DNA of 64,000 bases, from assembly GCF_003634935.1 (NCBI RefSeq), contig NZ_RBXO01000001.1, forward strand, positions 6,659,501-6,723,500, written 5' to 3'. This DNA is from Saccharothrix australiensis (lineage in GTDB: Bacteria; Actinomycetota; Actinomycetes; Mycobacteriales; Pseudonocardiaceae). A program made the translations under genes and the position numbers. Within the stretch, counting starts at the first letter, position 1. The number at the start of each line of letters is the position of its first letter. Positions 11,359 through 13,271 of the stretch are shown here, piece after piece. The notes under the pieces were generated by a model that did not search any database, had not been told where the DNA came from, and saw only the letters and a list, made by a program, of their open reading frames with translations.

Positions 11359-11550
11359 ACCCACTCCTCCCAGACGCCCGGAGCAAACCCCGAACCGTTC
11401 AGAGCAGCCCCCGATCCACCCTCTCACGGGCCACCGACAATTCCGGCATACGCTCAGGTCAGCCCCTGTGCGACCCAGCACACACCGACCCCACCCCGAC
11501 ACCCACCACCACTCGCCTTCACCGCCCCCGCCCCGACCACTCACCCACCC

Positions 11551-11667
11551 GACCGATCCACCCGACCGATCCACCCGACCGATCCACCCGACCGATCCAC
11601 CCGAGCGATCCACCCGAGCGATCCACCCGACCCACCGACCCGACCCACCGACCCGACCCACCGACCC
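11551..11667. repeat. 13-bp minisatellite
   Basis: There are nine tandem units: four of GACCGATCCACCC, two with one substitution (GAGCG...), and three of GACCCACCGACCC. The unit length is not a multiple of three, arguing against coding. It lies between the MATE promoter region and the palindrome block. From 11359 to 11550 I see no gene. Confidence 0.9.
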
Positions 11668-11704
11668 GGCCGCCTGACCCGGCCGCCCCAGGCACACCAC
11701 GGCC

Positions 11705-11839
11705 GGCTGCGTGTCATCCCCGTACGGCCTGCCCGCAGGGCGACCACATTTTTCACAGGGGCGCAAGCACGCTTTTCGCTTGCGCCCCTGTGAAAAATGT
11801 GGTGGTCTTTGACAGGTCGTACGGGGATGACACGCAGCC
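11705..11839. repeat. Palindromic element 1 (long hairpin)
   Basis: The outer arms 11705-11726 and 11818-11839 are perfectly complementary over 22 bp. The inner arms 11743-11768 and 11778-11803 are perfectly complementary over 26 bp. They enclose the 9-base loop ACGCTTTTC. Between them lies an asymmetric internal loop, with CCTGCCCGCAGGG on the left and GGTCTTTGACAGG on the right. No convincing coding frame crosses it. It forms an inverted pair with the element at 12050-12175. Confidence 0.9.
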
Positions 11840-11840
11840 A

Positions 11841-12016
11841 AAGCTTTTCAAGCGCAGCGTGAAAAGCTTGCAAAGCTTCGAAGAAGCTTTGCCCCCATCC
11901 TTGGTGGCCTGCCCAGCGGCGAGCGCCCTTCTTTAAGCTTTGACCCGCTAAAACCGAAGAACTTCCGCACGGAAGGCGCCCGCACAAGCTTTAAAGAAGC
12001 GCTCGCCGCTGGGCAG
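11841..12016. repeat. Central nested palindromes of the 12-kb block
   Basis: Three hairpins follow one another. 11841-11850 pairs with 11860-11869 (10 bp); 11870-11879 pairs with 11883-11892 (10 bp, 3-base loop); 11909-11926 pairs with 11999-12016 (18 bp). The last has imperfect continuation of TTCTTTAAGCTT/AAGCTTTAAAGAA inside and a small CTTCCG-CA-CGGAAG hairpin at its tip. The sequence AAGCTT occurs six times in 151 bases, remarkable at this GC content. No gene is recognised. Confidence 0.85.
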
Positions 12017-12049
12017 ACCTCCGGGGAGGAAAAACAAAGACAAGGGCGT

Positions 12050-12175
12050 CGTGTTCTCCCCGCATGGCCTGTCAAAGACCACCACAGTCGGTCAGGGGGC
12101 GCAAGCGGTGAAGCGTGCTTGCGCCCCCTGACCGACTGTGGTTGCCCTGCGGGCAGGCCATACGGGGAGAACACG
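12050..12175. repeat. Palindromic element 2 (inverted, diverged copy of element 1)
   Basis: The outer arms 12050-12071 and 12154-12175 pair with one mismatch over 22 bp. The inner arms 12081-12106 and 12117-12142 pair perfectly over 26 bp around a 10-base loop. Read on the minus strand it has the same order of modules as element 1 (CCTGCCCGCAGGG side, GTCTTTGAC side, GGGGCGCAAGC next to the loop). The middle of the inner stem differs in sequence, yet both arms changed together. From 12176 to 12284 only a 17-base direct repeat (12186 and 12215) is seen. Confidence 0.9.
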
Positions 12176-12284
12176 AGACCAGAAGTCTGTGCTGCGCGGT
12201 GCTGTGTGCCCGGATCTGTGCTGCGCGGTGCAGTGGGCCCAGGTCGGTGCGGCGGCGTGCGGCGTCGGTGCGCGTGCGGTTCGG

Positions 12285-13271
12285 TCAGTTCGTCGCGACC
12301 GATTCCAGTGCGGTTCTCAGGTCGGCGAGCACGGACGAGGCTTCGCCCGTCGCCGTGAAGCCGGCCGCGAGTCGGTGCCCTCCGCCGCCGAGCCGTTGCG
12401 CCACCTCGCCCACGTCGACCCGGCTCACGGCCCGCAGCGACACCGACCAGTACGACGGGCGCAGTTCCTTCAGCACCGCCGCCACCTCGGCCTCCGACGT
12501 GGTGCGCACGAGGTCCACGACGCTCTCGACCTCCTCCGGGCGCAGGCCCTCCGAGTCCGCCAGCGTGACGACCGCGTGCACGAAGCCGAGGCCGCCGGCC
12601 GCCGAGCGGTCCAGCACCGCGCGGGCCAGCACCTTCGACAGCATCCCCAGGTAGCCGAACGGGTGGGAGTCCATCAGCGGCCGCGCCACCGCTTCCGCGT
12701 CGACGCCGGTCGCCAGCAGGCGCGCCGCCACCCGGTGGGTCTCCGGGCCGGCGTGGCGGAACGACCGGGTGTCGGTCACCAGGCCGGCGTAGAGGCACCG
12801 GGCGACGGGCTCGTCCAGCTCCACGCCGAGTTCGTCCAGCAGCCGCAGGACGACCAGCGCGGTCGCCTCGGCGGTCGCGTCCACCACGTTCACGGTCCCG
12901 TACCCGGGGTTGGACACGTGGTGGTCCAGCACGACGACCGTCCCCGCGCGCCCGACGCGATCCCCGAGCGGGCCGAGCCTGGCCACCGAGCCGGTGTCCA
13001 GGGCGACCAGCACCTCGGGCTCGGCGGGCACCTCGGCGGCCGGGACCAGCAGGCCCGCCGCGTCGAGGTCCCGCAGGGTCTCCGGCACCGAGTCCGGCGC
13101 GCCGAAGGACACCCGCACCGCCTTCCCCCGCCGGTGCAGGGCGAGGCCCAGGGCCAGCGCGCTGCCCAGCGCGTCCGCGTCCGGGTTGACGTGCGCGAGC
13201 AGCGTCACGTCGGAGGCGTCGGTCAGGGCGGCGGCTGCGGCCCGCAGGGGGGCGCTCAGGTCGTTGGACAC
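12285..13271 (-). CDS. DHH/DHHA1 phosphoesterase (NrnA-like oligoribonuclease / pAp phosphatase)
   Basis: The 328-residue protein has HVNPDADALGSALAL (about residues 27-41), the DHH motif LDHHVSNPGYG and the DHHA1 signature GGGGHRLAAG near the C-terminus. Relatives degrade nanoRNA, pAp or linear cyclic-dinucleotide products. It sits ten bases after rbfA, as in mycobacteria (Rv2837c, a c-di-AMP/pAp phosphodiesterase). The GTG giving VSNDLSAP is the only start consistent with the rbfA boundary; it lacks a strong ribosome site, suggesting coupling. Confidence 0.92.
   Translation of the reverse strand: MSNDLSAPLRAAAAALTDASDVTLLAHVNPDADALGSALALGLALHRRGKAVRVSFGAPDSVPETLRDLDAAGLLVPAAEVPAEPEVLVALDTGSVARLGPLGDRVGRAGTVVVLDHHVSNPGYGTVNVVDATAEATALVVLRLLDELGVELDEPVARCLYAGLVTDTRSFRHAGPETHRVAARLLATGVDAEAVARPLMDSHPFGYLGMLSKVLARAVLDRSAAGGLGFVHAVVTLADSEGLRPEEVESVVDLVRTTSEAEVAAVLKELRPSYWSVSLRAVSRVDVGEVAQRLGGGGHRLAAGFTATGEASSVLADLRTALESVATN

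Follow-up and report, generated by a model that had tools for sequence, protein, structure and literature searches.

Organization of the palindromic block

The window, which is the whole 64,000-nucleotide stretch of Saccharothrix australiensis DNA analysed, contains a palindromic block, whose core (11710-12175) consists of two ~200-nt units joined tail to tail. The flanking genes are assigned by Pfam to MatE, DHH/DHHA1 (nrnA-like), TruB and NusA, in agreement with the preliminary description, which placed the block between nusA/nrnA and MATE/truB. The block was also said to be much richer in A+T than its surroundings. This holds only in part, because GC is 0.57-0.69 across the block and 0.73-0.77 in the adjoining coding sequence. 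On its left side, the element is preceded by a spacer (11545-11700) full of 13-bp tandem repeats of the CCACCCGACCGAT type.

Unit A is of type 1 (TCATCC arm) and lies on the plus strand. It starts with a conserved 5' edge (GGCACACC..CGGCTG, 11691-11709), which is similar in most of the full-length copies compared and is replaced by a type 2 edge in L045. The last five bases of this edge lengthen the outer stem by pairing with CAGCC at 11835-11839. The four-way hairpin (11710-11834) is composed of the outer stem (11710-11731/11813-11834), a mini-hairpin with a C(GNA)G triloop, CCC(GCA)GGG (HP1, 11732-11740), the 26-bp inner stem (11743-11803, with the loop ACGCTTTTC at 11769-11777) and a second mini-hairpin, GTC(TTT)GAC (HP2, 11805-11813), the final base of which is shared with the outer arm. 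It is followed by a linker (11841-11892, plus strand) with two small palindromes, AAGCTTTTC..GAAAAGCTT and GCAAAGCTTCGAAGAAGCTTTGC, the number of which varies from copy to copy, and by the 3' module (CATCCTTGGTGGCCTGCCCAGCGGCGAGCGC, 11896-11926, plus strand), the 5' part of which is similar to the outer 5' arm of unit A itself. The structured centre of the pair (11927-11998) is assigned to neither strand. It occurs in either orientation among the copies and is inverted, as judged by eye, in L039, L041, L043 and L046. Unit B, of type 2 (TTCTCC arm), lies on the minus strand and contains the 3' module (11999-12029, CCTCCCCGGAGGTCTGCCCAGCGGCGAGCGC as read on this strand), the four-way hairpin (12050-12175) and a conserved 5' edge (12176-12202, GCACCGCGCAGCACAGACTTCTGGTCT as read on this strand), next to which is a degenerate repeat.

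The two hairpins are inverted relative to each other, according to the inverted-repeat listing, and have the arms first described for them. The outer arms (11705-11731/11813-11839 and 12049-12071/12154-12176) are each 96% complementary, and the inner arms (11743-11768/11778-11803 and 12081-12106/12117-12142) form 26 bp with 100% complementarity, leaving loops of 9 and 10 nt. The asymmetric internal loop that was described is present and can also be read as the two triloop mini-hairpins.

Copy number and distribution

A 501-bp query detects 20 full-length or near-full-length matches in the host genome with 77-100% identity, and at least ~20 further partial or single-unit places, on scoring 40 of 88 first-look candidates. 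The host matches listed are all on the 7.81-Mb contig C1. Forty host loci were retrieved with their flanks, and alignment A2 contains 58 host units, which means that the unit is present ~60 times in the host genome. The host and its relatives were searched with R1, a covariance model of the unit built from 29 host units, by which unit A (L027:4021-4145) and unit B (L027:4361-4486:-) are scored at 136.0 and 137.2 bits, respectively. R1 matches are found in 22 of the 25 genus genomes (all but G007, G008 and G024), with 129 in the host and 76 to at least 141 in G006, G009, G010, G011, G016 and G023. These counts appear to take both strands of a palindrome, so that the units are about half as many. 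At the family level, R1 matches 39 of 200 genomes and 12 of 46 genera, under stricter filters and with at most 17 matches scored per genome. Further copies therefore exist in relatives and at non-homologous loci, and the original interpretation withstands the check that was set for it. The original observation is confirmed and is larger than first described. The ~60 occurrences in the host genome, the conserved 3' module and the structured pair centre could not be recognized in the preliminary description.

An exact 26-base pattern matches only S. tamanrassetensis across 84,980 species genomes, from which the host records are perhaps excluded. Plasmid and phage records contain no DNA similar to window 11700-12180 at E 1e-5. 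An Rfam scan of window 11400-12500 gives 16 hits at E ≤10, mostly to microRNA models and none at gathering score. Among the open papers listed, none deals with repeats of this kind in Saccharothrix or Actinosynnema.

An assembly artefact is rejected as the source of the copies, because 20 copies of unlike sequence lie on one large contig and the single-contig genomes G006, G009 and G016 also carry units. In G010, units lie in the first few hundred bases of contigs C25, C26, C45, C59, C61, C70, C71, C103 and C122, and they probably break the assembly there. Simple outer-stem palindromes are rejected as ancestors, because an exact type 1 pattern occurs at just two host places and in none of five other genomes. 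A second hairpin family (TCGCGCCT..GATC, with 23-bp arms) is present at L040:7353-7407 and L064:529-583, the latter copy having the unit loop ACGCTTTTC and a weak R1 match (31.8 bits).

Anatomy of the unit

The unit consists, in this order, of a 22-bp outer stem, HP1, a 26-bp inner stem with a 9-10-nt loop, HP2, the outer 3' arm, a spacer and the 3' module. The four-way hairpin is ~125 nt long, and the whole unit with the 3' module is ~200 nt long. The unit set has 212 rows and 175 distinct sequences, four rows being places retrieved twice. By a triloop scan not limited to that loop, HP1 is C(GNA)G in 201 of the 212 rows (GCA in 144, GGA in 28, GAA in 27 and GTA in 2), and by triloop scan HP2 is C(TTT/TCC/TTC/TCT)G in 175 rows. 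C(GNA)G is an unusually stable DNA mini-hairpin. Among the 175 distinct units, the HP1 stems are of three kinds and the HP2 stems of four, as counted for G-N-A and T-first loops only (HP1 in 171 and HP2 in 145).

The 3' module has a consensus of roughly (C)(A/C)TCC..GG.GGYCTGCC..GGCGAG.. and is located mostly 8-75 nt downstream of the hairpin; the script does not find it in 29 of the 212 rows. Its 5' part agrees in type with the outer arm of the same unit. Among 168 distinct pairs, an ATC arm is accompanied by an ATC module in 62 and a CTC arm by a CTC module in 63, with no cross-matches; the remaining pairs comprise nine that have ATC or CTC arms and a module of neither class, and 34 with other arms. 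The similarity between own arm and module (6.51 in 97 distinct pairs) is above 300 of 300 shuffles (mean 6.04; 6.24 within genomes). Common descent of the unit types accounts for part of this matching.

Units in another genus (L233-L236) keep the C(GCA)G mini-hairpin and the GGCGAG module, while L232, L237 and L238 have no 3' module visible by eye. Collapsed units are found at L065, L229 and L230. The unit at L058:4015-4137 is a natural recombinant, in which the inner stem with its loop has the reverse orientation with respect to the mini-hairpins.

Fold and strand asymmetry

The fold z-scores of the window hairpins are −13.4 to −16.4 on both strands with RNA and DNA energies, and no shuffle is as good. 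In unit A, the two triloop mini-hairpins are favoured by DNA energies, and an imperfect internal stem by RNA energies. The mean HP1 probability for 150 units is 0.23 with RNA energies and 0.31 with DNA energies. The energies do not discriminate between RNA and DNA as the folded material.

The covariation of the stems, first noted between the two window hairpins, is borne out on 29 host hairpins. In these, 98.4% of the cells are paired, changes on both sides occur at 25 of 54 pairs (17 of 26 in the inner stem), and none of 500 shuffles is as good. Related sequences can surpass such shuffles; slid structures pair just 32-42% of the cells. A decayed coding gene is not supported, because the stems covary as pairs (reading frames being judged from the list of open reading frames only), and the description of the block as palindromic and non-coding with an upheld fold stands.

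The F strand is defined as the one that carries HP1, the C(GNA)G mini-hairpin, on its 5' side. The 175 distinct units contain 247 G-T/T-G and 26 A-C/C-A cells (124 and 25 once collapsed by context), with much of the excess concentrated in a few alignment columns. Because picking the better-scoring strand could bias this count, orientation was also fixed by the 3' module alone; of 212 places, 47 ambiguous ones were dropped, and five have the module opposite the better-scoring strand. With this orientation, there are 165 G-T and 20 A-C cells in 132 distinct units, and the columns number 30 for G-T and 11 for A-C in two alignments (sign test, p=0.004). G-T outnumbers A-C on one strand, and therefore the F-strand fold is the one kept. 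The fold of one particular single strand thus appears to be under selection, and strand-biased mutation could be an alternative source of the G-T excess. The earlier proposal, that the fold is maintained or copied as a hairpin, is supported in part. Maintenance is upheld, and the excess of G-T on one strand points away from strand-blind copying of a palindrome.

Variation between genomes

Ten of the 20 loci in G011 have an immediate neighbour gene in common with one of the 40 host loci, and five have both (host/G011: L038/L116, L040/L122, L041/L112, L043/L121 and L047/L106). Half of the G011 loci thus lie at host-shared neighbours, and movement is therefore not frequent. At 18 further host sites, the unit is present in G011 at 11 (adjacency of both neighbours not being established for L042, L044 and L063) and absent at 7, of which 4 have both neighbours adjacent. 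At the same 18 sites, G006 has the unit at 2, and 14 have no R1 match despite conservation of both neighbours. The short hairpin in the G011 spacer L204, the counterpart of the host unit site L056, stands alone and has arms like the outer stem.

The nrnA-MATE order is kept in all 25 genus genomes, and an R1 unit is located there in four of them, as a pair in the host and as single units in G006, G016 and G023. The corresponding spacer of G011 contains, as judged by eye, a truncated remnant of the unit, and decay may account for some of the absences, as exemplified by this remnant. In place of the element, the nrnA-MATE spacers L249, L253 and L259 of other genus members contain ~22-bp tandem copies like TTCTGAACGTAGGACACGCGCG, which belong to another repeat family.

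The similarity between host and G011 units at shared sites is 0.823 for type 1 (seven pairs) and 0.840 for type 2 (nine pairs), as compared with 0.804 and 0.843, respectively, for other units. The similarity of units within a genome (0.858-0.895) is higher than that between host and G011. Because units resemble each other within a genome more than they do at shared sites, concerted evolution is indicated. Transposition events and circles are not seen, nor are target duplications or exact insertion ends, the divergence of the spacers between species being too great for ends to be defined.

Placement of the units and their possible roles

Placement was analysed for the 40 host loci and 20 loci each from G011, G006, G016 and G010, chosen among the matches listed, with genes called by a simple GC3 script. 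A comparison set was formed by 297 further spacers of these loci, each 60 bp or longer. Three clusters, among them the outward-facing pair L173, were dropped because a called gene was missing on one side. The remaining 121 unit clusters lie in 63 convergent, 49 co-directional and 9 divergent spacers, while these numbers are 41, 147 and 109 for the other spacers. None of the 121 clusters overlaps a called gene. The orientation is tail to tail in 70 of the 71 counted pairs, and 50 clusters are single units, for which no partner scores above the model threshold. Rare head-to-head (outward-facing) pairs are L165 in G016 and L173 in G010.

The main alternative to a mobile element, possible although rather unlikely, is that the unit is a functional RNA. 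The F-strand transcript would then serve at gene 3' ends as a terminator, an mRNA stabilizer or an independent small RNA, and its own 3' end would be formed by the GGCGA-loop hairpin and a T-run. The strand-specific selection of pairing is consistent with this role, as are the many sites common to host and G011, the proximity of the units to gene 3' ends (the median distance is 106 nt for facing 3' ends, n=175, and 275 nt for facing 5' ends, n=67) and the many 3' modules that terminate like GGCGAGGACGCTTTT. However, of the 23 single units in co-directional spacers, 8 have the orientation of the adjacent genes and 15 the opposite one (p=0.21), an argument against a read-through 3'-UTR role. In addition, the units of L043, L046, L106, L120 and L039 are located, as judged by eye, past an apparent ordinary hairpin terminator, just 2 of the 18 host sites checked have a unit in G006, and no Rfam match is near gathering score.

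A role in chromosome architecture, in which a protein that recognizes junctions or hairpins would bind extruded four-way cruciforms in the part of the chromosome towards the origin, is unlikely. The four-way topology and the short triloops would suit such a role, and none of the 40 host loci is located in the 2.35-Mb stretch at 2.74-5.09 Mb, which lies opposite dnaA (0.33 Mb). This gap may merely mirror the positions of conserved genes, a location bias of that sort for core genes being described in a passage of PMC3469384. Moreover, a cruciform requires strand-symmetric selection of pairing, but the selection observed is not symmetric, and the sites differ between species.

Neutral palindromes, which would owe their perfection to template-switch (quasi-palindrome) correction and their shuffling to homologous recombination, with no selection on the fold, are very improbable. 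They could explain why the inner stems of the 58 host units fall into 25 kinds of separate and mostly perfect cassettes, why that of L058 is inverted and why the centres are mosaic. However, strand-blind correction should yield G-T and A-C in similar numbers instead of 165 and 20, and the conservation of the mini-hairpin loops and of the 3' module goes further than palindromy would require.

Candidate enzymes and comparison with known elements

PF01797 (Y1 HUH transposase, RAYT) is not detected in the host (G000), G006, G009, G010, G011 or G016, while the E. coli control is positive. It is present in 5 of the 25 genus genomes, with one match in G023. The reverse transcriptase domain RVT_1 is absent from the host, G006 and G009 and present in G010, G011, G016 and G023, and in 10 of the 25 genus genomes overall. 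RAYT and reverse transcriptase are rejected as the mobilizing enzymes, because the host has neither, and the analysis yields no other candidate for such an enzyme. The search for IS91-type Y2_Tnp gives no match, but the controls likewise give none. An autonomous element between the outward-facing units 4.2 kb apart in L162 (G016) was also rejected, because the frames between them resemble, by eye, ordinary secreted glycosidases.

MITEs and elements of the RU/ERIC/Correia type are 100-500 bp long and non-autonomous, and have inverted termini. The present element is like them in these three respects; no target duplication is definable for it, the spacers being too diverged. Integron attC sites and the ends of IS200/IS605 elements are recognized as folded single-stranded DNA, the strand being chosen by loop or extrahelical features. 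The present element would be like both in these features, but the Y1 transposase is missing from the Saccharothrix host.

The element would work most like a REPIN. According to passages of PMC3116915 and PMC8266576, a REPIN or REP doublet with its RAYT likewise has inverted mini-hairpins inside a long non-coding hairpin and is present in many extragenic copies; here, presence also varies between relatives. The authors of PMC3116915 state that compensatory changes are common in the spacer and that the doublet is the unit, and they propose a clover-shaped alternative fold; in the present element, HP1 and HP2 likewise flank a covarying inner stem. One strand is singled out in both cases, in REPINs by the transposase, which reads one strand (a passage of PMC8266576). 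Unlike REPINs, the present element has a ~125-nt unit with unlike mini-hairpins and a 3' module, forms tail-to-tail pairs of ~500 bp, and occurs in a Saccharothrix host without a Y1 transposase. GTAG is on neither strand of the two window units and is found on either strand, at any position, in 70 of the 212 unit rows; a CGTC tag is, by eye, not constant. Because the host and five other element-rich genomes lack PF01797 and no GTAG tag is constant, the element is not classed as a REPIN. As described in parts of PMC3733652, the CGTC and GTAG REP superfamilies consist, like the present family, of dispersed palindromes with frequent dimers, and the CGTC REPs are stated to have no transposase of their own. 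Their stems are 5-13 bp with loops of 2-20 nt, while the present element has 22- and 26-bp stems at a four-way junction. The main text of PMC3733652 contains none of the words actino-, saccharo- and streptomyces.

Proposed mode of propagation and significance

At a probability of roughly 50%, the units represent a family of non-autonomous, REPIN-like mobile elements of Pseudonocardiaceae moved in trans by an enzyme. As a single strand, the F strand of the ~200-nt unit would adopt the shape of a four-way junction, and in this folded form it would be copied in trans into spacers. Insertion would occur mostly near gene 3' ends, often as tail-to-tail pairs, and would be tolerated little or not at all in genes and in divergent promoter regions. 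Units once placed would persist and then decay through loss of parts. Recombination or gene conversion would probably be the process that homogenizes the units within each genome. A weaker suggestion is that the 3' module, by repeating the outer arm, might provide a second recognition or pairing site in excision or integration. More tentatively, and with little confidence, we propose that the elements move or act throughout the family as folded single strands via an enzyme outside the known Y1 HUH and reverse-transcriptase routes. The body recognized would be the four-way junction, with its C(GNA)G and C(TYY)G triloops, and excision and insertion would be guided by the outer 3' arm, which would pair by turns with two matched partners, the outer arm and the 3' module.

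Among the palindromic repeats of bacteria, those studied best are linked to RAYT transposases. The family described here is abundant, with structural selection apparent on one strand, and its host has no RAYT. It affects genome assembly, at least nine units lying at contig starts in G010, and it calls for caution in taking every conserved, covarying hairpin of these genomes for a riboregulator. It also offers many natural compensatory variants, with which the requirement for a folded strand can be tested.
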